This document shows positions 15,901 through 39,605 of a stretch of 46,441 nt of DNA, in pieces (position 1 is the stretch's first letter; every line of letters begins with the position of its first letter). Both the position numbers and the translations under genes were made by a program. The notes under the pieces are model-generated. The model was not told where the DNA came from, searched no databases, and worked only from the letters and a program-made list of their open reading frames with translations. The stretch covers positions 1 through 46,441 of the forward strand of contig JAFGCG010000004.1 in the NCBI GenBank assembly GCA_016932715.1. Reading direction: 5' to 3'. The DNA is from Anaerolineales bacterium (lineage in GTDB: Bacteria; Chloroflexota; Anaerolineae; Anaerolineales; Villigracilaceae).

Positions 15901-16332
15901 TCATTCCAGAATTTCCGCCAGCACCCTCAATGCCAGCGTGTAGGAGCGCCAGCCAAACCCAACGATCTTGCCTCTGCAGACAGCCGAGATCATGGAATGG
16001 TGCCTGAATTCCTCGCGGGCATACACATTCGATAAATGGACTTCCACCACGGGAATCCCGAGCGCGGTAATGGTATCCCGCAACGCAACCGAGGTATGGG
16101 TATACCCGCCGGGATTGAACAGCACACCATTCGCCCATGTCTTTGCATCCTGCAGTGCATCGATCAACGCCCCCTCATGATTCGATTGAAAGCATTTCAG
16201 GTCCGCGCCAAACTCCTTGCCCAGTTCCATCAATGTGGTATTGATGTCGCCCAGGGTCATCGAGCCGTAGATCTCCGGCTCCCGTGTACCCAGCATATTC
16301 AAATTTGGTCCGTGCAGGACTAGGATTTTCAT
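15901..16332 (-). CDS. aroQ: 3-dehydroquinate dehydratase, type II
   Basis: 143-residue cytoplasmic enzyme of the shikimate pathway, converting 3-dehydroquinate to 3-dehydroshikimate. Diagnostic type II motifs are complete: [16 protein letters not shown] (catalytic Tyr), [13 protein letters not shown] (binding Asn-His-Glu), [14 protein letters not shown] and [16 protein letters not shown] (catalytic His). The length is normal. It is the last gene of the aro operon, 50 bp after the aroKB fusion. Confidence 0.96.
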
Positions 16333-16381
16333 GATTGCTCATTTCCTCGCGCTGAGTGCTATGCGATCGAAGCGCGAATAG

Positions 16382-17914
16382 TCATTCCAATACCAATTCC
16401 AGATCGGTCACATCCACCAGTTCCACTTTGCCGATGTCGGCAGGCAGTGCAAAGCGGATCGATTTGGCATTTTTCTTTTTGTCCACGCGCATGGCGCGCA
16501 GGATCTCCTCGCGCGGCAGTTCCTCAGGAATTTGAACAGGCAGCCCCAGTTTTTGGAGCACCTCGCTGATCGTACCAGACAAGCCTCTGCCTGCCACCGT
16601 TAAATGTTCCGCCAGCTTCGCCTCAGCCACCATCCCGATCGCGATGGCTTCACCGTGCCGCAACTGGAACCTGCTTGCCAGTTCCACCGCGTGTCCAACG
16701 GTATGGCCCAGATTCAGGGCCGCCCGCAAGCCCTTTTCGTAGGGATCCTCTTCGATTACTTTGATCTTCACCGCGATCGCCTGCCTGACGATTTGCTTGA
16801 GGTTATCCTTTACGCAATCCAATCCACGCGCGCACAACGCAAATAATTCCGGGTCAGAGATGATCCCGCCCTTCACAACTTCCGCCAGCCCTGAAATGAA
16901 CTCGCGCTCAGGCAATGTACTCAATACCTGCGGGTCAGCCAGGACAAGTCTGGGTGGATAAAATGAGCCAATCAGGTTTTTCCCTTCAGGCAGGTCAAAG
17001 CCTGTTTTCCCGCCCAGCGAGGCATCGACCATCGCCAGCAGGGTGGTCGGGACGCACACCCAGTGGATACCGCGCATATAGGTCGCAGCGGCAAAGCCCG
17101 TCATATCACCGATCACACCACCGCCCAGCGCAATGGCTGTACTTTTGCGGTCGAGCCCATGCGCGAGAAATCCATGCCACAATGTCTGGATGGTCTCCAG
17201 GTTCTTGTAGTCTTCGCCCGCGGGAATCGTTATGATATTTGGAGAAAAACCTGCATTACGAAGAGATGTCAGCGCGTTTTCGGCGTGGAACCTCGCAACA
17301 TTTTCATCCGTCACGACGATGGGATTTTGCAAGCCGCGTTCGTAGGACAAATTACCAATTTGTCCTACAGATTGCACGAGGGCATCATACTCCCCCATTG
17401 CGCGCAGATGAAAACGCCCGAGCCTGGTTTGAATTTGAAAGGCATTTTGCTCGGCAGTCTTGCCATCCACATGGGACTGGATCGCAAAGGAAGAATAATG
17501 TTCGCTGCGTTGGTCCAGCAGGGCAGCCAGCTTCCGGCGCACATCACCTGCCAGCAGGGGCCGCCTGCCCGACTCGTTTTTCAGGCGCTCGACGAGCGTG
17601 TCCAGCTCTGCCGTGAGCAGGACGACCGTGCCGTGCGCCTCGGCAAAGAGGCGGTTTTCATCCCGCAGCAATGCCCCGCCGCCGAGAGCGATCACGCTCT
17701 CTCTTTCAGAAGGAATATTTTTTAGTGCAGCAGTTTCCATATCCCGAAATGCCGCTTCGCCCTGCCCTTCCATGATCTGTGCAATGGATCTGCCCGCGTT
17801 CGATTCGATCACGCGGTCGACATCCACAAATGGCAGGTTGAGGTTACGCGCCAGGATTTTTCCGATCGTGGATTTGCCTGTTCCCGAAGGGCCGTAGAGA
17901 AAAATGTGAGACAT
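16382..17914 (-). CDS. aroKB: bifunctional shikimate kinase / 3-dehydroquinate synthase
   Basis: 510-residue fusion of two shikimate-pathway enzymes. Residues 1-165 are shikimate kinase: Walker A GPSGTGKST, VDVDRVIE, GGGALL and the lid SGRRPLL. Residues about 190-510 are 3-dehydroquinate synthase: GGGVIGDMTGFAAATYMRG, PTTLLAMVDASLGGKTGFD, GLAEVVKGG and LNLGHTVGHAVE with the metal-binding His. The junction near residues 183-191 is encoded by a perfect 12-bp inverted repeat. AroK-AroB fusions are known from Thermotoga. AAGGA precedes the ATG at 17914. Confidence 0.95.
   Translation of the reverse strand: MSHIFLYGPSGTGKSTIGKILARNLNLPFVDVDRVIESNAGRSIAQIMEGQGEAAFRDMETAALKNIPSERESVIALGGGALLRDENRLFAEAHGTVVLLTAELDTLVERLKNESGRRPLLAGDVRRKLAALLDQRSEHYSSFAIQSHVDGKTAEQNAFQIQTRLGRFHLRAMGEYDALVQSVGQIGNLSYERGLQNPIVVTDENVARFHAENALTSLRNAGFSPNIITIPAGEDYKNLETIQTLWHGFLAHGLDRKSTAIALGGGVIGDMTGFAAATYMRGIHWVCVPTTLLAMVDASLGGKTGFDLPEGKNLIGSFYPPRLVLADPQVLSTLPEREFISGLAEVVKGGIISDPELFALCARGLDCVKDNLKQIVRQAIAVKIKVIEEDPYEKGLRAALNLGHTVGHAVELASRFQLRHGEAIAIGMVAEAKLAEHLTVAGRGLSGTISEVLQKLGLPVQIPEELPREEILRAMRVDKKKNAKSIRFALPADIGKVELVDVTDLELVLE
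17342..17368. repeat. perfect palindrome inside aroKB
   Basis: GTAGGACAAATT, a 3-base loop (ACC), then AATTTGTCCTAC. It is read in frame as the peptide VGQIGNLSY at the kinase/synthase linker. Confidence 0.8.
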
Positions 17915-17929
17915 AAAATTCCTTGAATG

Positions 17930-18055
17930 TCGTTGCGAGCCGAAGGCGAAGCAATCTCCCCGTTTAAGGGTTGCTTCGTCGCCGCTGGACGCACAGTTTG
18001 CTTAGCAAACTGTGCTGCGTCCCTACAGAACGCGGCGGCTCCTCGCAACGACATG
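17930..18055. repeat. long imperfect palindromic repeat, copy 2
   Basis: GTCGTTGCGAGCCGAAGGCG and GAAGCAATCTCC on one side, GGTTGCTTCGTCGCC and CTCCTCGCAACGAC on the other; an inner GCACAGTTTGCTTAGC/AAACTGTGC hairpin lies between. Same design as the copy at 6016-6152. It fills the gap between aroC and aroKB inside the operon. Confidence 0.8.
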
Positions 18056-18056
18056 A

Positions 18057-19253
18057 TTACTCCCAAAAGATGTGAGGCGTGTTATCCATTTGCAGATCGT
18101 CAAGCGTAGCTTTGCGCAATGATTCAAAGCGCGGTTTCATCTCATTCATCGAATCCCCGCCGAGTTTTTCGATGAGCGCCTCCGCCAGCACAAAGGCGAC
18201 CATCGCCTCCAGAATGGGAACGGCACGCGGGACCGGGCAGAAATCGGAGCGTTCATACCGGGTGGAGGATTCCGCTCCTGAAGCGAGATCCACTGTCGGC
18301 TGGGGCAGAAGCGTCGTGGCGATCGGTTTCATCGCCGCGCGGACGACGATCGGCTGTCCGTTGGAGACGCCGCCCTCCGTTCCGCCTGCGCGATTCGTGT
18401 GACGGGTGACTGCCCTCACCCCCGCCCCCTCTCCCTCAGGGAGAGGGGAGAGTCTCATCGCATCATGGGCCTGCGTCCCGGGCAGACGCGCGTTGGCAAA
18501 CGCGTCGCCGACTTCGACTCCTTTGATCGCCTGCACGGACATCACTGCCATGGCAAGTTTTGCTTCCAAGCGTTTATCCCATTGGGCGAAGCTTCCCAAG
18601 CCAACAGGCGGGTTCAAGACAACAATCTCCAGCACCCCGCCCAGCGTGTTTTTGCCGTGAATTGTTTTTTCGATCTCCGCCCGCATCTGACTCGCATAGG
18701 GCTCGATCGGGCAGCGCACATCTGATTCTTCGGCGCGGGCAAAACGCTCCTCGTAAGGCATATCACCAAAATCGGCGGTGATCTCGCCAATCGCTGAAAC
18801 ATACCCGCCCACAAGGATCCCAAATTGCGCGAGAAAATGTTTGCAGATTGCGCCCACCGCGACGCGCATGGTCGTCTCACGCGCCGAGGCGCGTTCGAGG
18901 GCAGGACGCAAATCCTTGTAGCCGTATTTCACTGCGCCCGTTAAATCCGCGTGACCGGGGCGCGGTGCGGTCATGGGCTCGATGGCCCTGCCCTTCCATT
19001 TGAGGTGATCATCATTTTGCACGAGCAAGGCAATCGGCGCGCCGGTTGTTTCGCCTGCCAACACCCCGCCCAGAATTTGCACGGTGTCTTTCTCGATCTT
19101 CATGCGCCCACCGGCACCATAGCCCTTTTGGCGGCGTGCCAGCTCCTGGTTAATGACCTCAGGCGTGATGGCAAGACCCGCAGGCATGCCGTCCAGGATG
19201 GCTGTCAGCGAAGGACCATGGGATTCTCCAGCAGTAAGAAAACGAAGTGTCAT
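18057..19253 (-). CDS. aroC: chorismate synthase
   Basis: 398-residue FMN-dependent enzyme turning EPSP into chorismate. Family motifs are RFLTAGESHGPSLTAILDG at the N terminus, RRQKGYGAGGRMKIEKD, GALERASARETT-like RPALERASARETTMRVA, and the C-terminal RTNNAGGIEGG equivalent HTNRAGGTEGGVSNGQPIV. Just before this last motif, residues about 266-280 (SPLPEGEGAGVRA) replace the usual short loop and are encoded by a palindromic DNA element. The frame remains open and the catalytic residues are intact, so the enzyme is probably active. GGAA precedes the ATG at 19253; it follows aroE by 42 bp. Confidence 0.95.
   Translation of the reverse strand: MTLRFLTAGESHGPSLTAILDGMPAGLAITPEVINQELARRQKGYGAGGRMKIEKDTVQILGGVLAGETTGAPIALLVQNDDHLKWKGRAIEPMTAPRPGHADLTGAVKYGYKDLRPALERASARETTMRVAVGAICKHFLAQFGILVGGYVSAIGEITADFGDMPYEERFARAEESDVRCPIEPYASQMRAEIEKTIHGKNTLGGVLEIVVLNPPVGLGSFAQWDKRLEAKLAMAVMSVQAIKGVEVGDAFANARLPGTQAHDAMRLSPLPEGEGAGVRAVTRHTNRAGGTEGGVSNGQPIVVRAAMKPIATTLLPQPTVDLASGAESSTRYERSDFCPVPRAVPILEAMVAFVLAEALIEKLGGDSMNEMKPRFESLRKATLDDLQMDNTPHIFWE
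18413..18456. repeat. CCTCTCCC palindromic element, copy in aroC
   Basis: CCCTCACCCCCGCCCCCTCT then CCCTCAGGGAGAGGGGAGAG: a hairpin of about 11 bp. It is translated in frame in aroC as SPLPEGEGAGVRA. Related copies lie at 34647-34689 (trpC) and 23947-24006 (aroH leader). Confidence 0.85.
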
Positions 19254-19257
19254 AAAG

Positions 19258-19306
19258 GTTCCAGTATTCAGTGGTCAGTATTCAGTGTTCAGTGTTCAGT
19301 GAGCAG
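19258..19306. repeat. heptamer array (CAGTNNT type) at aroE/aroC junction
   Basis: CAGT recurs exactly every 7 bases about seven times (CAGTATTCAGTGGTCAGTAT and onward). It supplies the final His codon and TGA stop of aroE. Confidence 0.85.
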
Positions 19307-20180
19307 TTTGGTCGGCCGCCGCAAACATGACTTCACGCGCAGGCTTGTGTGCAGTCCAAATTTCAAAGGAGAGGGCAGCCTGCTCGATCAGCATACCTAA
19401 ACCCGTCGTGGCAGATAGGCCCTGCAAACAGGCATCCCGCACCAGCTTTGTCTCGCGTGGATTGTAGACCAGATCGTAAATTGCTGCATGAGGCGGAAAA
19501 GGCAGGTTCGCCGGCCACGGAGATCCGGCGACGTTCGGGGTCATGCCGACCGGTGTGGTGTTGACGACAAGTGCGATGTTCGACAATTCGATATTCGATA
19601 GATTAAGATCCGCGACGGTCAATTGATCATTTGAGAATGAATCCGCAAGTCCCCTGGCCTGTTCGATGCGACGCGCGGCGATTGTTACCTGCCACCCATC
19701 CATGAGCAGGGCATACACGACTGCCCGAGCAGAACCACCGGCACCCAGGACGATTACCGATTTACGATTTGCGATTGACGATTTGCGATTCGCTGTTGGC
19801 GATTCGCTGTTGGCGAGAAAGCGGTCTAGATCCCGGAGGAAACCCGGTGCGTCGGTGTTGTCGCCGATGAGTTTGTGGTCCCACAGATAAATTGTATTTA
19901 CCGCCCCGATCGACCTGGCCGTTGCTGTCAGTTCATCAAGAACTTGCATTACATTTTGTTTATGCGGAATGGTGACGTTGAGTCCCTGAATTTCGCCAGA
20001 GCGGAGGCGGGAAAGCAGGTCTTTCAAAGATCCCATGTCATCGGGGTGGATAGGGAACAGCGAGTAGTCGCCTTCCAATCCACAGGATCGCAGCGCGGCG
20101 GCATGGATCTTGGGAGACAAACTATGTCCCAGTGGATAGCCGATCAGACCAAGTCGAAAGTGAGAAGTAGAAAGTGACAT
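19296..20180 (-). CDS. aroE: shikimate dehydrogenase
   Basis: 294-residue NADPH enzyme reducing 3-dehydroshikimate. Substrate-site motifs are GYPLGHSLSPKIHAAAL, LNVTIPHK (catalytic Lys) and GDNTDAPGF (catalytic Asp); the nucleotide site is VLGAGGSARAVVYAL. Just before the Rossmann motif, residues about 123-143 (ending SIANRKS) are encoded by a nine-unit heptamer array; a second small array encodes NLSNIELSNIAL near residue 195. Its very first codons (MSLSTSHFRL) and its stop codon also lie in heptamer arrays. The frame is intact, so the extra residues seem tolerated. Lies between aroA and aroC. Confidence 0.94.
   Translation of the reverse strand: MSLSTSHFRLGLIGYPLGHSLSPKIHAAALRSCGLEGDYSLFPIHPDDMGSLKDLLSRLRSGEIQGLNVTIPHKQNVMQVLDELTATARSIGAVNTIYLWDHKLIGDNTDAPGFLRDLDRFLANSESPTANRKSSIANRKSVIVLGAGGSARAVVYALLMDGWQVTIAARRIEQARGLADSFSNDQLTVADLNLSNIELSNIALVVNTTPVGMTPNVAGSPWPANLPFPPHAAIYDLVYNPRETKLVRDACLQGLSATTGLGMLIEQAALSFEIWTAHKPAREVMFAAADQTAH
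19575..19606. repeat. short word array in aroE (TCGA type)
   Basis: On the minus strand ATCGAAT, ATCGAAT, TGTCGAAC, ATCGCAC follow one another. It is in frame and encodes NIELSNIAL. Confidence 0.5.
19751..19813. repeat. in-frame heptamer array inside aroE
   Basis: Nine consecutive 7-bp units: CGATTAC, CGATTTA, CGATTTG, CGATTGA, CGATTTG, CGATTCG, CTGTTGG, CGATTCG, CTGTTGG. The total of 63 bases is 21 codons, so the reading frame is kept. Confidence 0.9.
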
Positions 20181-20206
20181 GGGATCAAAGAAGAAAGAGG
20201 AAAGAC
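20145..20206. repeat. heptamer array across the aroE start
   Basis: On the minus strand TCACTTT, CTACTTC, TCACTTT, CGACTTG include the first codons of aroE, and AGGAAAG-type words fill the gap to the aroA stop at 20207. Confidence 0.65.
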
Positions 20207-21490
20207 TTAACGTAAGGTTTCCAGTACCTCAAAGAATGCAGGGAACGTTTTGGAGACGCAGGAGGGATTTTCTATGGTAATTCCTTCTGCTCGCAGACCG
20301 ATCAGGGAAAAAGCCATTGCCATGCGGTGATCGTTGTACGTCTGAATCGTTGCAGGCCGGGTCTCCCCGCATGGATAGATTGTCAGGCCGTCTTCATGCT
20401 CCTCCACACGGACGCCGAGCCGCAGCAGCTCTGTGCAGACTGCGTGGACGCGATCCGTTTCCTTGGCACGGATGAACGCAATGCCGCGGATCCTTGTGGG
20501 AGAGGAAGCAAAGGGAGCAATCGCCGCGAGGGTCTGGGCGGTGTCGGAGATGTCGCGCATATCCACATCCACGCCATGCAGTGAGTTCGTACCCGTTACT
20601 TCGATAAAGTTATTTACTTCTTTTATGCTGCAGCCCATTTGCCGGAGGACATCAAGAAAACCCATATCGCCTTGTCTGGATTTGCGCGAGATGTTTTCCA
20701 CACGGACTGTTCCATTACAGATCGCAGGCGCAGCAAAGAAGTACGAGGCAGCGGAGGCGTCGGATTCGATGGAGTAAGAAGAAAGAGGAAAGAAGTGAGA
20801 AGGTTGAGTTATGAATCGTGCATACCCCTGACGCTCAATTTTTACTCCAAAGTCCTGCATGATGGCAATGGTCATGTCGACGTAGGGCTTGGAATTTAAT
20901 TCCGTGATCACTTCTATTTCGACCGGAGATTTTGCGTAAGGAGCAATCATCAACAAGGCTGAAAGAAATTGAGAGGAGACATTTCCCGCTATTTTTGTCT
21001 TCCCGCCGGGTAGACCAGAGGCAAGGATGCGTACAGGAGGGCAGATTGATGAAGGCTGATCGCTAATCGCTAATGGCTTGATCTTTGCGCCGAGTTGTGT
21101 AAGTGAATCTACGAGATCACCGATGGGGCGTTCGCGCATGCGCGGTTCGCCGTCCAGAATGTATTCCCCGTTTCCAAGCGTGAGAAACGCAGAAAGGAAG
21201 CGCGCGGCGGTACCTGCATTGCCGATAAAGAGTTCCGCTTTCTTTGCAGGAATTTTCCCGCCCAGCCCGATAACCGTCATTTCGTGGTTCGCTTCATCGA
21301 GTCGAACGTCAAAGCCCAGGGTTTGCAATGCTTTGGCGAAATAACGGGAGTCGTCGGAGAATAGCGCATTGACGAGACGGGTCGTTCCGTTTGCCAGCGA
21401 GGCAATCAGCAGGGCGCGGTTCGTCAATGACTTGGAGCCGGGGACGCGGACGGCAGCGCGGAGGGGATGGCGGATCGGGGTGATTTGCAT
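20207..21490 (-). CDS. aroA: 3-phosphoshikimate 1-carboxyvinyltransferase (EPSP synthase)
   Basis: 427-residue enzyme joining shikimate-3-phosphate and PEP. Motifs: PGSKSLTNRALLIASLANG, FIGNAGTAARFLSAFL, the second-domain ESDASAASYFFAA and TYNDHRMAMAFSL near the C terminus. Two segments are encoded by short-word arrays: residues about 135-145 (PLAISDQP) and 227-240 (QPSHFFPLSSYS), the latter replacing the usual loop before ESDAS. The ATG at 21490 is preferred; a longer start would translate an upstream array. The active-site Gly after GNAG is the usual Thr-Ala context, a class I-like sequence; inhibitor sensitivity cannot be read from this. Confidence 0.95.
   Translation of the reverse strand: MQITPIRHPLRAAVRVPGSKSLTNRALLIASLANGTTRLVNALFSDDSRYFAKALQTLGFDVRLDEANHEMTVIGLGGKIPAKKAELFIGNAGTAARFLSAFLTLGNGEYILDGEPRMRERPIGDLVDSLTQLGAKIKPLAISDQPSSICPPVRILASGLPGGKTKIAGNVSSQFLSALLMIAPYAKSPVEIEVITELNSKPYVDMTIAIMQDFGVKIERQGYARFITQPSHFFPLSSYSIESDASAASYFFAAPAICNGTVRVENISRKSRQGDMGFLDVLRQMGCSIKEVNNFIEVTGTNSLHGVDVDMRDISDTAQTLAAIAPFASSPTRIRGIAFIRAKETDRVHAVCTELLRLGVRVEEHEDGLTIYPCGETRPATIQTYNDHRMAMAFSLIGLRAEGITIENPSCVSKTFPAFFEVLETLR
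20771..20811. repeat. in-frame heptamer array inside aroA
   Basis: On the minus strand CTTCTCA, CTTCTTT, CCTCTTT, CTTCTTA, CTCCATC. It encodes the loop before the ESDASAASYF motif. A smaller CGATTAG-type triplet lies at 21056-21080, also in frame. Confidence 0.7.
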
Positions 21491-21549
21491 GAGAACGAAA
21501 CAAGAAAGAGGAAAGAAGAAAGAGGAGAGAGGCAAGAAGTTATCTGCAA
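21491..21549. repeat. AGAAAGA-type heptamer array at tyrA/aroA junction
   Basis: GAAAGAG/GAAAGAA words recur (AAGAAAGAGGAAAGAAGAAA). It extends from the aroA start back to the tyrA stop, where GAACACTGATTGC supplies the stop codon. Confidence 0.65.
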
Positions 21550-22404
21550 TCAGTGTTCTATGAGGGATTGGTAGGCAGCGCGTGACTGATCGAGGAGGAG
21601 TTCAAGTTGGGTGTAATTCTCTGCCTGCAAAGCGGAATCGATTTCGTTGAGCGAGTTGCGGAAGGCCTGGAGGGCGTCGAGAATGTTGTCCCGATTCGAC
21701 TGCAGGATGCCCATCGCCATGGAAGAGGGCGTCCCTGCCAGACGGCTGGTGGATTTGAAACCCGTGCCAACGAAGGAGGCAAATTCCGGCGGCGTGCAGA
21801 GGACCAGCGCAGACGACAACATACACAGAAGATGACTCGTCGAGGCGAGGGCACGGTCATGATCTTCAGCAGCCATCTCGATGGCATGCGCGCCAATGTT
21901 CGCAATGATCTTCCGGATGGCAGATTTTGCCCGTCCAGTTGTTCTTGCCAGGGCTGTGACGACAAAAGCCGCCTCCCGATATAAACTTGCCTCCGCATTT
22001 TCCAGGCCCAGTCTTTCTTTTCCGCAGATGGGATGTCCGCCGATCGGGTCGAAGCGCTCCGGCAAGGCAGCCATGGCGCTGACGATGTCTCTTTTTGTCG
22101 AGCCAAGGTCAAGAACGATACAGGGCTTTTGTATAAATGACGGCAGTTTCCGGATAAAGTCAATAATGGCTGGAACGGGAGTCGCCAGGATCACGAGATC
22201 CGCTCGAGGTAAAAGTTTGGCGGGATCGCTGTCAGCCTGGTCAACGACCTGTTTCGCGCGGGCAAGCTTGAGCGTCGCGGGCTGCGCGTCGATCCCATAA
22301 AGCGCGGCGCATTTCCCTTTCAACGCCAACGCCAGCGATCCGCCCATCAATCCCAGTCCAACAATGGCAACCTTTGCATTTTGTAGTCGAAAGCCAGCCT
22401 CCAT
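21550..22404 (-). CDS. tyrA: prephenate dehydrogenase
   Basis: About 284-residue enzyme of tyrosine synthesis (prephenate to 4-hydroxyphenylpyruvate). NAD(P) fold at the N terminus: VAIVGLGLMGGSLALALKG, then LVILATPV; catalytic region IGGHPICGKERLG with the conserved His; C-terminal helical dimerisation domain (GTGFKSTSRLAGTP). ATG 22404 is chosen because it lies 4 bp after the aroF stop; an in-frame ATG at 22446 would overlap aroF by 38 bases. No ACT domain follows, so feedback by Tyr through such a domain is not expected. Confidence 0.93.
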   Translation of the reverse strand: MEAGFRLQNAKVAIVGLGLMGGSLALALKGKCAALYGIDAQPATLKLARAKQVVDQADSDPAKLLPRADLVILATPVPAIIDFIRKLPSFIQKPCIVLDLGSTKRDIVSAMAALPERFDPIGGHPICGKERLGLENAEASLYREAAFVVTALARTTGRAKSAIRKIIANIGAHAIEMAAEDHDRALASTSHLLCMLSSALVLCTPPEFASFVGTGFKSTSRLAGTPSSMAMGILQSNRDNILDALQAFRNSLNEIDSALQAENYTQLELLLDQSRAAYQSLIEH

Positions 22405-22408
22405 AGCG

Positions 22409-23455
22409 TCACCATCCGGCAACAGCGGTCTTTTTGATCGGAGCAATCTGACGACCCATCACTTCAGCAATCGCCCTGACCTGCCTGACCATCTCGGCAA
22501 ATGCTTCCGGCTTGAGGGATTGCTTGCCATCCGAGGCGGCATGCTTGGGGTCGGGATGAACTTCCACGATGAGACCGTCCGCACCCGCGGCGATTGCTGC
22601 GCGCGCGATCGGAGCGACATAATCCCAGTGACCCGTGGCATGCGAGGGATCCAGGATGACAGGCAGGTGCGTCAGGCTTTTGAGAACAGGGATGGCGTTG
22701 ATATCAGTTGTGTTGCGCGTGGTTGTTTCAAAGGTGCGGATGCCGCGCTCACACAGGACCACCTGTTTGTTGCCCCCCGCAAGAATATATTCGGCTGACA
22801 TCAACAGTTCTTCGATCGTGGCGGAAAGACCTCGCTTGAGCAAGACACTTTTGCGTGTTTCCCCGATCGCGCGCAAAAGATTGAAGTTCTGCATGTTGCG
22901 CGCGCCCACCTGGAGGACGTCGACATACTTTACCATCAGGTCAAGCTGAGTCTGCGACATGATCTCGACCACCATGGGCATACCGGTTTGTTCACGCGCT
23001 TCGGCAAGATATTCGAGGCCTTCCTCGCCGAGACCCTGGAATGAGTACGGTGAGGTACGCGGTTTGAACACACCGCCGCGCAGGGCGTTTGCGCCCGCTT
23101 CACGCACAGCCTGAGCCGTCTCGAGGATCTGCGAGCGTGATTCCACCGCGCAGGGACCCGCAATGATGACGATGTCATTCCCACCCACCTGGAAACCATC
23201 GATCGGGAAGATGGAATTTTCGGGATGGAACTGCCGCGAGGCAAGTTTGAATGGCTGGGTGATACGCTTCACCATATCGACCCCATCCAGCACTTCGAAG
23301 TTCTCGGTCGGGAGGTCGTGCGTCTCGCCGATCGCGCCGATCAGGGTGGTTTCCACCCCCTGCGATAGATGCGCGGCGAGGCCCGCGTCCTTGATCCGTT
23401 TGATCACATTCTCGATCTGTTGGGGTGTGGAGTTGGGTTTCATGATAATCAACAT
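22409..23455 (-). CDS. aroF: 3-deoxy-7-phosphoheptulonate synthase (DAHP synthase)
   Basis: First enzyme of the pathway, joining PEP and erythrose-4-phosphate; 348 residues. An N-terminal ferredoxin-like regulatory domain (about 1-75, [18 protein letters not shown]) precedes the KDO8PS/DAHPS barrel: [81 protein letters not shown] and EVHPDP. This is the COG2876 type, as in Thermotoga and Bacillus-like forms, where the N-terminal domain mediates inhibition by aromatic products. AGGAG precedes the ATG at 23455. Confidence 0.95.
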
Positions 23456-23475
23456 AGGGTCTCCTGAATAATGGA

Positions 23476-23560
23476 ATTTGAAAAATGAAAAGTAGACGAG
23501 TAAACACGTATCCGGAAAGGTTAGTCACTTGACTTGTGTACCTGTTTACTTGTCTACCTC
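23476..23560. repeat. octamer array with dyad between aroH and aroF
   Basis: AAAGTAGACGAGTAAACACG on one arm, TGTGTACCTGTTTACTTGTC and TACCTCC on the other: ACTTGTGT, ACCTGTTT, ACTTGTCT, ACCTCCTC at 8-bp spacing. It fills the intercistronic gap. Confidence 0.75.
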
Positions 23561-23561
23561 C

Positions 23562-23933
23562 TCACTGCGCGGCGATCAGGTCGGGTCGCAGCGTGACTGC
23601 GTCGCGCAAATACACATGTTTGATCTCAGACTGCGGAACTTCCGTATTCCAGTGGACCAGCACGCGGATCACATACGGCAGGCTACCCGGCACAGGGATC
23701 TCGCGCGCACACATCATCGGGACAAGTTCCCAACCCATCTGACGCGCGGCTTGCGCGGGGAAGGCAGAATTGAGATCGCCCGTCAGAGTAAAGATGGCGC
23801 TGGCAACATCTTCCGGTCGCATCCCCTCGTTTTCATCCAGGATCGCCTCCAGCAGTTCGCGCGTGCCTTGCAGGATCAAATCAGGATCATCGGCTGAAAC
23901 GGTTGTCGCACCACGAATGCCACGAATTGTCAT
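23562..23933 (-). CDS. aroH: chorismate mutase, AroH type
   Basis: 123-residue monofunctional chorismate mutase converting chorismate to prephenate. The family start [19 protein letters not shown], the middle [20 protein letters not shown] and the catalytic-site [16 protein letters not shown] (with Arg and the preceding CAREIPVPG) match the Bacillus subtilis AroH class. AGGAG lies 7 nt before the ATG at 23933. The frame is open further upstream but that stretch crosses the leader terminator, so it is not translated. First structural gene of the aro operon, behind the attenuator. Confidence 0.94.
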
Positions 23934-23946
23934 TGTCTGCTCCTGA

Positions 23947-24006
23947 GCCCTCATCCCCGGCCCCTCTCCCATCCTTAGAGGAGGTCGGACGGGAGAAGGG
24001 TGAGGA
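23947..24006. repeat. CCTCTCCC palindromic element, copy upstream of aroH
   Basis: GCCCTCATCCCCGGCCCCTC TCCC on one side and GGGAGAAGGGTGAGGA on the other, with a longer loop. It lies between the leader terminator and the aroH ribosome site. Confidence 0.7.
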
Positions 24007-24010
24007 GAGG

Positions 24011-24047
24011 AAAAATAAAAGAGCGGGACCGCATGGTCTCGCTCTTT
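24011..24047 (-). terminator. leader terminator (attenuator) of the aro operon
   Basis: On the minus strand AAAAGAGCGAGACC, loop ATGC, GGTCCCGCTCTTTT, then ATTTTT. Strong intrinsic terminator located between the leader peptide stop and aroH, so operon expression requires read-through. Confidence 0.85.
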
Positions 24048-24075
24048 TGCTGCACTGAGATATGGTTCTCTGTAC

Positions 24076-24153
24076 TTAAGCGCCACCAACGGCAACCGTA
24101 TTCGGGAGGCCGTAATAAAAGTAAAACGCAAACCAACGTGACAACTTAAGCAT
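24076..24153 (-). CDS. aromatic-rich leader peptide of the aro operon
   Basis: 25-codon reading frame, too short to be an ordinary gene. It begins [15 protein letters not shown] and continues PNTVAVGGA after a Leu. Seven of nine residues at positions 7-14 plus neighbours are Trp, Phe or Tyr (W, F, F, Y, F, Y, Y with one Ala). It ends with TAA, 29 bases before the terminator stem. The predicted transcription start lies only 2-4 bases before the ATG, so the message is probably leaderless. The composition and position are those of an attenuation leader whose translation senses charged aromatic tRNAs, as in the pheA and trp leaders of enteric bacteria. Control of the aro operon is an inference. 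Confidence 0.85.
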
Positions 24154-24163
24154 ATTGGGCGCA

Positions 24164-24192
24164 ATTCTATGCCAGTGATGAGAATGAGTCAA
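24164..24192 (-). promoter_or_regulatory. aro operon promoter
   Basis: TTGACT (24187-24192), 17-bp spacer, TAGAAT (24164-24169) on the minus strand. The segment CATAGAATTGCGCCCAATA covering the -10 and the start point is nearly the same as in the trp operon promoter. Confidence 0.85.
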
Positions 24193-24525
24193 GAGGGGAA
24201 TTTGCTTTTATTATGGTTTTCTCAAATTAATGTCAGACAAGGGTCTTGAACCGTAAAGCCCGCGAAGATCGTAAAGAGAATCATAAAACTTTGCGTGCCT
24301 GGCGCTCTTGGAGATTGTTTTGAAATTCCGCCGAGACCTCGTTGACCTACTCGCTTGGGCAAGATTCAGCCGCGGATTACACGGATTCACACAGATTTTT
24401 CCGTCCTTCTCAAATCTTCGTGTCCCTTTGTGTCCTTTGTGGTGAATAAGAAACACTCTCTTCGCGGTTTTATCTTGTAAACCCGGAACGCTACAACGGT
24501 TTTAAGAAAATCTCATGCGCTTCCG
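24193..24525. repeat. gene-free region with dispersed short repeats
   Basis: No gene is supported. The region holds GCCGCGGATTACACGGATTC, TTCACCACAAAGGACACAAA on the minus strand (a word array of about 10 bp period, related to 29092-29125) and CGCGAAGATCGTAAAG. It separates the glycosyltransferase end from the aro promoter. Confidence 0.6.
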
Positions 24526-25821
24526 TCAACGCAATCGCCGAAAGACTTCCAGCGTGGCGGCAGCCATTCGTGCGGAGGAAAATTTTTCCCAGGCGGCTTG
24601 CTGAGCATGTCCGCTCATTTGCTTTCGCAAATCCGCATTCCGCAACAGGAAAGCAAGTTTTTGAGCAAGATCGAGACTGTCATGCGGGCGATGCAGGAGC
24701 CCTCCCTGCGTGGCTTTGACCCATTCCGGGTAGGCTCCATGTTCGGGCTGCACGACAGGTACGCCGCTCGCCAGCGCTTCGAGAATGGATATTCCTTTCG
24801 GCTCGCGATAGGTCGCCGGGACGGAGAACACATCGATCTGGCGGAAGAAGTCCAGTTTTTCGAGGCGTTCCAGGGTGCCCAGCAATTTGATACGATCTTC
24901 AAGCCCGTTATTTTTGATGGTCTTGCGAATGCCATTGAGATATGCCTCATAGGCGCGGCTGAGATAGCCGCCAGCCAGCAAACGCAAATCTGGAAATTCA
25001 CCGGAACGCACTAAACTAATAAACGCGTCCACAAGCAAATGCAATCCTTTTTCAGGGACGAAGCGCGCCAGGAAGCCGATCGTCAGCGGGCGGGATGTGG
25101 ATGCATCAGCACTCAGATTACGATAATCGTCCAGGGCGATCCCGGGCCAGACAACATCTATTTTCGAGCGGTCCAACCCGACCCATTTCGAGAACATGTC
25201 CGCATAGTATGTGCTGATCGCCAGGAAACGGTCTACGTCACGGGCACGGTCGCGGATCAATTCCAGTGCTTCCTGCTGGTAAGGCTGAGGCATCCCTTCC
25301 AGGAAGATGTCTTCGCCATGCAGTCCACAAGTGATGGGAACCTGGAGGGAACGCTTGAACTCGGGCGCGACGCCGATCAATAACGTGTTCGTGATATGGA
25401 TCAGATCCGGTTTATAGGTTGACTTGATCCAGCCGACCAGTTCCTGGAGCAGCTCGCGCTGGTTGCCTGCCTCCCCTTTCAGGATGGAGAGGGTCATTTC
25501 CGCATTTGCTTTTGGGTCCACTGCCGAGCCGATATCGAAGCGGGGCATCAGGCGCAGGATCGCCTGCGAACCGGCCACTCGCAATAAAAGATCGCGCCCA
25601 AAGAATGGACGCGGATACTTCTGCAATAAATAGGCTTTGATCCCGCCATAGAAAATCCGCCGCTCGCCGACGTTCTCTTCATCCAGGCGCATGGGCGTAT
25701 ACAGCGGAAAGAGGCTGACATCTTCCCCGGCGGCTTTCAGGGCAGCTGCCAGCGCGTTATCGTGCATGCAGCTGCCGCAATACATATTGGCTGCGCCGGA
25801 GGCGATGTAAATGATTTTCAT
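24526..25821 (-). CDS. glycosyltransferase family 4 (GT-B fold)
   Basis: 431-residue glycosyltransferase. N-terminal acceptor domain begins MKIIYIASGAANMYCGSCMHDN, with a CGSC-HDN stretch typical of one GT4 subgroup; the donor domain starts near residue 230 (TIGFLARFVPEKGLHLLVDA) and holds the E-x7-E region PKGISILEALASGVPVVQPE. No membrane span. The ATG at 25821 overlaps the stop of the upstream methyltransferase gene (ATGA). Donor and acceptor sugars are unknown; a lipid or cell-surface glycan role is a guess. Confidence 0.9.
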   Translation of the reverse strand: MKIIYIASGAANMYCGSCMHDNALAAALKAAGEDVSLFPLYTPMRLDEENVGERRIFYGGIKAYLLQKYPRPFFGRDLLLRVAGSQAILRLMPRFDIGSAVDPKANAEMTLSILKGEAGNQRELLQELVGWIKSTYKPDLIHITNTLLIGVAPEFKRSLQVPITCGLHGEDIFLEGMPQPYQQEALELIRDRARDVDRFLAISTYYADMFSKWVGLDRSKIDVVWPGIALDDYRNLSADASTSRPLTIGFLARFVPEKGLHLLVDAFISLVRSGEFPDLRLLAGGYLSRAYEAYLNGIRKTIKNNGLEDRIKLLGTLERLEKLDFFRQIDVFSVPATYREPKGISILEALASGVPVVQPEHGAYPEWVKATQGGLLHRPHDSLDLAQKLAFLLRNADLRKQMSGHAQQAAWEKFSSARMAAATLEVFRRLR

Positions 25822-39212: not shown

Positions 39213-39605
39213 TAAAACAGAATCCCCTCCGTCCATTGGGACGAGAGGGGACTCCCGTGGTGCCACCCAGGTTAACGCCTACTAAACAAAAATCCCTGTG
39301 TGAGGCAACAGGGAGAAGAAAGCCAGCGTCACTCTTGTAGTCAACTAGTCGGCTAGTCGTTTGGTCAACTGGTCGCTAAGTAACTCTGCCTGATAACGGG
39401 TGCAGTTCCCGACGCAGGCTACTCGACCGTTTGACTACTCAACTACCTAACTATTGAACTAGCAAACTGCTTTTGCCCTTGCAACTCGGAGGTCCATTCG
39501 GCTTCTGCGCTTTTGCCTTGCTTTCAGACTGCGGTCATTCCCGACCGCGTGCTCGGCTCTCTGGAAATCGCTTTGAAGCGTACTCGTCCTCGTCAGCGTT
39601 TTTGG
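39213..39605 (-). promoter_or_regulatory. tryptophan T-box riboswitch of the trp operon
   Basis: T-box leader read on the minus strand. Stem I starts near 39605 (GACGAGGACGAGTACG) and holds the specifier TGG in GAATGGACC (39494-39496), the Trp codon. The T-box sequence CTGGGTGGCACCACGGG contains the TGGC bulge (39262-39265), whose last base matches the G discriminator of tRNA-Trp. The terminator GTCCCCTCTCGTCC / GGACGGAGGGGAT with a T-rich tail is at 39213-39253. Uncharged tRNA-Trp should stabilise the antiterminator and turn on trpE and the genes after it. An 8-bp word array occupies the linker between stem I and the antiterminator. Confidence 0.93.
39343..39470. repeat. octamer array with dyad in the T-box linker
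   Basis: AGTCAACT, AGTCGGCT, AGTCGTTT, GGTCAACT, GGTCGCTA, then (after about 40 bases) GTTTGACT, ACTCAACT, ACCTAACT, ATTGAACT, AGCAAACT: exact 8-base units of complementary sense. The arms could pair as an extra stem. Confidence 0.88.

Follow-up and report, generated by a model that had tools for sequence, protein, structure and literature searches.

Locus organization

The window, that is, the whole stretch of DNA that was analysed, comprises 46,441 nucleotides from an Anaerolineales bacterium. Its minus strand carries an aro operon of eight genes in the order aroH, DAHP synthase, tyrA, aroA, aroE, aroC, an aroKB fusion, and aroQ (Pfam). aroH encodes a type I chorismate mutase and the fusion gene an AroK-AroB protein; the eight genes cover all steps to chorismate and the entry to phenylalanine and tyrosine. 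The features of the operon and its upstream region are as follows.

24164..24192, minus strand: promoter TTGACT-17-TAGAAT (TTGACT at 24192-24187, a 17-bp spacer, TAGAAT at 24169-24164)
24076..24153, minus strand: leader open reading frame (ORF) of 25 codons plus stop; the ATG follows the -10 hexamer by 10 nt and lacks a Shine-Dalgarno motif
24112..24135, minus strand: putative control codons (7-14 of the leader), encoding W F A F Y F Y Y; relatives keep them as a class
24110..24113, minus strand: segment 1 (ACGG), sharing bases with the last Tyr codon; pairing partner of the first part of segment 2
24078..24092, minus strand: segment 2 (CCGUUGGUGGCGCUU), which extends into the UAA stop codon; 5' strand of the predicted antiterminator
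24029..24044, minus strand: segment 3 (GAGCGAGACCAUGCGG), comprising the terminator 5' arm, the loop, and the start of the 3' arm; 3' strand of the predicted antiterminator
24011..24048, minus strand: intrinsic terminator, with a hairpin at 24048-24017 followed by the U tail (A and five T)
23944-23940, minus strand: AGGAG before aroH, a Shine-Dalgarno-like motif; no such motif occurs at the leader
15901..23933, minus strand: the eight-gene aro operon

An initial annotation of this DNA had proposed a near-consensus promoter, a 25-codon frame with seven aromatic residues in its core RWFAFYFYY, a terminator behind the frame, and an eight-gene aro operon downstream, and all four were found in place. 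The core contains one Trp, three Phe, and three Tyr residues. The terminator hairpin formed in the RNA fold with a z-score of -3.1; a simple terminator scanner listed 0 terminators and missed this real hairpin. The promoter scan returned one site versus a mean of 0.6 in shuffled sequences; hence, the promoter site alone proves little. A search of a phage collection with positions 23565-24700 gave no match, which is uninformative. Between the terminator and aroH lies a GC-rich imperfect palindrome (23940-24005, minus strand). Similar-looking palindromes were seen by eye in the same gap of several relatives and are perhaps a dispersed repeat.

Conservation of the leader in the window's family

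A sample of 100 genomes from the window's family was used, and AroH was found in 73 of them. Seventy of the 73 aroH matches were compared as loci L001-L070; two further genomes, G009 and G021, were added later and both carry the leader frame, and G098 ends at a contig edge. Thus, 72 of the 73 aroH loci are readable, and the aromatic leader frame is present in all 72, roughly 140-270 nt upstream of aroH in the 70 loci. A conserved aro operon without an aromatic short frame, which the initial annotation had named as the case that would speak against it, did not occur among them. When the region within 360 nt of aroH was scanned, a frame with at least six W/F/Y in 10 codons was found in 66/70 loci versus 1.2% of dinucleotide shuffles. 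The leader frame is not due to chance. Four loci fell below this threshold. L046 has an intact aromatic run, as read in the sequence, and has lost the usual stop, so that the frame passes beyond it and was missed by the script; L049, L062, and L065 have weaker runs of 4-5 aromatic residues per ten. The promoter layout is common to 69/70 loci (best hexamers matching at least 9 of 12), and the terminator hairpin was detected in 69/70 by script and in L059 by eye. One genome, G039, has two copies of the leader, the additional one lying upstream of an additional DAHP synthase gene.

A covariance model was built from 53 loci of the family, obtained from alignment A2 by leaving out L046, L049, L059, L060, L062, and L069 and thinning near-identical rows. 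It matched with an E-value of at most 1e-10 in 71/73 genomes with aroH, the 53 source loci matching by construction, and in none of the 27 genomes without aroH; weak matches were seen in 4 of these 27. No match to the operon's own type of DAHP synthase was found in 26 of the 27 either, and the exception, G077, has this gene at a contig edge. The absence of both genes from 26/27 genomes suggests that the family has repeatedly lost the synthesis of aromatic amino acids, although some genomes are incomplete. The leader is co-inherited with the pathway in the window's family.

The aromatic codons lie in a single frame, at 7.36 per 10 codons versus 1.84 and 1.59 in the other two. Synonymous codons are mixed (TTT 201, TTC 68, TAC 124, TAT 106), and relatives differ freely in which of F, Y, and W they use and in what order. 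Phe and Tyr codons occur in 70/70 leaders of the family; Trp codons occur in 36/70 and are missing from 34/70. The idea in the initial annotation that one ribosome reports on all three aromatic tRNAs is therefore borne out for Phe and Tyr, and for Trp only in the 36 leaders that encode it. Outside the family, F and Y were found in 61/64 leaders and W in 29/64. The RNA after the aromatic run is strongly conserved. In the final third of the leader, largely the same RNA encodes a ..VAVGGA-type end in 51/70 loci, a ..PLVALK-type end in 13/70, and neither in 6/70. Because of this frame bias and these changes of the C-terminal frame, codons are kept within the run and RNA after it. This agrees with the earlier expectation that aromatic codons are conserved and flanking codons are not: outside the aromatic run the peptide sequence changes among relatives, even to the point of a different reading frame.

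Competing helices

GCCGUUGGUGGCGCUU, which adjoins the stop codon, has two alternative partners: ACGG, where the aromatic run ends, and the 5' arm and loop of the terminator. Three helices are possible: 1:2, formed by segment 1 and the beginning of segment 2; 2:3; and 3:4, in which segment 3 joins segment 4 as the terminator. Across the 70 sequences of the family, the share of paired cells was 85.8% for helix 1:2, 86.7% for 2:3, and 94.9% for 3:4, compared with 16.5-56.6, 36.4-44.5, and 28.0-64.1% in the respective slid controls. Two-sided changes were observed at 6 of 8 pairs in 1:2, 5 of 13 in 2:3, and 10 of 13 in 3:4. Shuffles, which treat rows without regard to the kinship of the sequences, equalled the two-sided pair count of 2:3 in 9/500 cases and the pair-type count of 1:2 in 29/500. 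In L066, segments 1 and 2 and the terminator loop change together, as judged by eye. The sequences' own 2:3 duplexes averaged -16.0 kcal/mol versus -15.3 kcal/mol for permuted ones (4/5000 permutations). Judged from sequence, a mutually exclusive antiterminator exists and covaries; its pairing, which the initial annotation had been unable to resolve, was located between segments 2 and 3.

Outside the family the sequences differ, yet the same principle is seen again: a strand after the run resembles the 3' arm of the terminator and often complements its loop. Sequences with a run and no terminator (L144, L152, L159, and L224) were dropped from the duplex test, and the remaining 60 rows contain 50 unique terminators. 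Own duplexes had a mean of -19.8 kcal/mol versus -16.3 kcal/mol for permuted ones (0/10000), and a sequence's own terminator ranked first in only 4/50.

The predicted folds depend on the position of the ribosome. Free RNA up to segment 3 was predicted to form 1:2 in 59/70 loci and 2:3 in 14/70. With a ribosome placed on the last aromatic codon, the antiterminator 2:3 was predicted in 67/70, so that an alternative fold, the lack of which the initial annotation had named as a counterargument, is predicted. With a ribosome at the stop, or in the complete RNA without a ribosome, the terminator 3:4 was predicted in 70/70. Shuffled versions of segment 2 still gave at least six pairs of 2:3 in 161/350 folds; the fold test alone is therefore weak, and the main weight was put on covariation. 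Ribosome geometry was evaluated in the 67 of 70 same-family loci with a fitting terminator distance. In 65/67, segment 2 falls at least partly within the footprint of a ribosome at the stop, and the geometry of a stalled ribosome fits in 63/67. Outside the family, by a crude footprint, the stall geometry fits in 51/60 loci and the stop geometry in 26/60; because of the latter count, the terminating (release) step may differ there.

Distribution in Chloroflexota

Among the best 80 of 122 matches, close named relatives are Anaerolineales and other Chloroflexota metagenome-assembled genomes (MAGs). Elsewhere in the class, 28/40 loci of other families have a frame containing six or more W/F/Y in 10 codons, versus 0.125% of shuffles; the count rises to 31/40 when any stop-free frame is included. 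No aromatic run was found in the other 9 of 40, one of which has a frame further upstream.

Named loci with at least 250 nt of upstream sequence were then scored among the best 80 of the 122 relatives, with phyla assigned from record titles; L157, the title of which names no phylum, was omitted. L132 has less than 250 nt upstream. Within these best 80, the run and terminator were present in 11/11 close relatives and in 25/32 other Chloroflexota loci (29/32 at a threshold of five or more aromatics), were not found in the remaining 7 of these 32, and occurred in 0/35 loci outside Chloroflexota (1/35 at five or more). Roseiflexus MAGs carry both elements (L193, L203); they were not found in Ktedonosporobacter (L191) or a Thermoflexaceae MAG (L168). 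Among 20 loci from other Chloroflexota classes, four carry the device at threshold (L211, L214, L217, and L220) and 16 do not show it at the same threshold. The expectation that the aro operon always comes with the frame thus holds in the window's family, but the frame was not found in some loci elsewhere in the class and phylum.

A different gene content was noted by eye in L156, a Caldilineaceae MAG, whose operon comprises aroH, pheA, two DAHP synthase genes, tyrA, aroA, aroE, trpB, and trpA. A single F/W/Y leader there precedes genes for all three aromatic amino acids.

Proposed mechanism and alternatives

The leader is very probably a ribosome-mediated transcription attenuator of the whole aro operon, and we infer its translation, stalling, and response as follows. 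RNA polymerase would begin some 2-4 nt ahead of the leader ATG, leaving a near-leaderless RNA end for a ribosome to bind. When charged Phe-, Tyr-, or, where encoded, Trp-tRNA is short, the ribosome would stall on codons 7-14 and cover segment 1; segment 2 could then pair with the 5' arm and loop of the terminator to form the antiterminator, and the operon would be transcribed. When charged tRNA is ample, the ribosome would reach the stop at the end of segment 2 and cover this segment, allowing the terminator to form. If no ribosome is present, segments 1 and 2 would pair, and the terminator would also form.

Within this reading, the start site has an alternative: the same attenuator might be transcribed from further upstream and carry an ordinary leader 5' end. 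Data from outside the family lean this way, as among the 42 loci whose promoter is clear, an in-frame start codon lies no more than 20 nt from the -10 hexamer in only 13, and 34/60 loci show a Shine-Dalgarno-like motif ahead of at least one in-frame start. Within the family, however, the distance from the -10 hexamer to the ATG is 10 nt in 49/70 loci and 8-12 nt in 59/70 (the latter including L062, which has poor hexamers), a Shine-Dalgarno-like motif stands before aroH in 69/70 and before the leader ATG in 0/70, and the T-box leader of trpE in the same window shares the promoter and start region. An upstream start is accordingly unlikely at this locus. From the -10 spacing and the missing Shine-Dalgarno motif, a leaderless start is likely in the window's family. 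As a class-wide trait it was rejected, given the few close starts and frequent Shine-Dalgarno-like motifs in other families; for the same reason the leaderless form looks special to the window's family, and the leaderless start of the initial annotation is retained for that family and not for most others.

The aromatic run is also a distinctive peptide stretch, as would be expected if the nascent aromatic peptide, perhaps together with a free aromatic amino acid, rather than a shortage of charged tRNA, halted the ribosome. Such an arrest-peptide switch is very unlikely: F, Y, and W are freely interchanged, and two reading frames are used for the C-terminal third, so that no fixed peptide end is conserved. 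For a TnaC-type arrest peptide in particular, fixed residues up to the stall site were looked for and not found, and this candidate was rejected. The strong conservation of the RNA after the run would in turn suit an untranslated U-rich site for a protein or a tRNA (TRAP-like or T-box-like). Against this stand the aromatic frame bias, the mixed synonymous codons, the TGG codons, and the fixed spacing of the ATG, and we regard it as extremely unlikely. No Rfam family matched the aro leader above chance, and a T-box or other known RNA family was rejected on this ground; RF00230 gave no match at 23900-24300 even at an E-value of 1. A UGGU motif as a tRNA 3'-end site was likewise dropped, since by eye it is not kept in all rows of the alignment.

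Other leaders in the same genome

Attenuation by stalling on aromatic codons, as preferred here for aro, is accompanied in this window by a T-box leader before trpE (39234-39605, minus strand; RF00230, 62.1 bits, E-value 3.6e-13, below the gathering score of 93), the promoter of which resembles that of aro. Elsewhere in the genome, a Thr-rich leader, MFAHGFGMTMTTTTSRSFREEFVPG, followed by a terminator, precedes an aspartokinase gene (G000:C96:72414-72455 and downstream; L111, L122). It shares the promoter layout and start region of the aro leader. Among 24 aspartokinase loci of the family (relatives L227-L250), at least four Thr in 10 codons were found upstream in 19, a count made with no shuffle control, and an aro-type promoter with the ATG 10 nt after the -10 hexamer in 6. 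A similar promoter, with an ATG 8-11 nt after the -10 hexamer, a short frame, a hairpin, and a T run, was also seen at G000:C26:12883-12922 (L117). The short frame there lies directly before what looks like a dihydroorotase gene (pyrC).

A broader view is that the aro leader belongs to an old Chloroflexota attenuator family that pools the charging of Phe-, Tyr-, and often Trp-tRNA for the whole shikimate pathway. In the window's family it would have been rebuilt in leaderless form with a promoter layout common to the Thr-rich aspartokinase leader, which would make leaderless attenuation a general control principle of the lineage. We consider the chances for and against this view to be evenly balanced.

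Comparison with known systems

The enteric trp and pheA attenuators serve one amino acid each, and to our knowledge none of them has a leaderless start. The aro leader resembles them, as far as they are described in the accessible text of PMC11802643, in its control codons, its 1:2, 2:3, and 3:4 helices, and a terminator before the first gene. The elements of the trp/phe type were found at the locus, namely product codons clustered in a short ORF, an intrinsic terminator, and, from sequence and covariation, a mutually exclusive antiterminator; by analogy, the mechanism would be that of the trp/phe attenuators. No shared sequence is expected with the enteric leaders, and the aro leader has no Rfam match.

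The nearest known case in content, according to the available parts of the sources, is aroR of Corynebacterium glutamicum, a short Phe-Tyr-Phe leader peptide before aroF; phenylalanine limitation raises read-through there, and tyrosine has no effect (PMC4046766, PMC11802643). Both leaders encode a short aromatic peptide ahead of a DAHP synthase gene. As compared by description in those parts, the aroR core is F-Y-F in one species, whereas the Chloroflexota runs mostly comprise 6-9 F/Y/W, and the Chloroflexota leader, in another phylum, precedes a whole aro operon. The initial annotation knew of no such attenuator for this operon type in this phylum. This stands for Chloroflexota, for which none was found in the open-licence literature, but aroR provides a precedent before a DAHP synthase gene.

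For leaderless translation, the ilvBNC leader peptide of C. glutamicum is reportedly leaderless. Leaderless leader peptides are also described, in the portions of the papers available, for trpL of Sinorhizobium meliloti (PMC7298713) and for several leaders of Streptomyces lividans (PMC8079986). Like these, the aro leader ORF lies at or near the predicted 5' end of the RNA and has no ribosome site. As far as those portions describe them, the three cases concern other amino acids and other phyla and have mapped 5' ends, unlike the Chloroflexota ends, which are predicted.

Leader-peptide attenuation has been described mainly for Proteobacteria and Actinobacteria. In open-licence literature, as far as its accessible text goes, no description of a leader-peptide attenuator in Chloroflexota was found, including in PMC4833913, PMC3766115, and PMC2494555. 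According to the available part of a comparative study with five Chloroflexi genomes, the motifs of amino acid attenuators that Rfam contained at the time were suggested to be gamma-proteobacterial in origin (PMC3766115). The presence of a conserved, covarying aromatic attenuator in Chloroflexota, Roseiflexus MAGs among them, speaks for an origin that was broader or took place more than once. According to the accessible portion of PMC2494555, Chloroflexi are known to have T-boxes upstream of trp genes. Like the T-box before trpE in the window, the aro leader would control an aromatic pathway by tRNA charging through a terminator and an antiterminator, from the same promoter type; a T-box needs no ORF and senses uncharged tRNA directly, whereas the aro leader would use an ORF. 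The device offers a test case for one ribosome summing several tRNA signals and for attenuation with leaderless initiation. With aro under a leader peptide and trp under a T-box, two tRNA-sensing systems would divide one pathway in this window.
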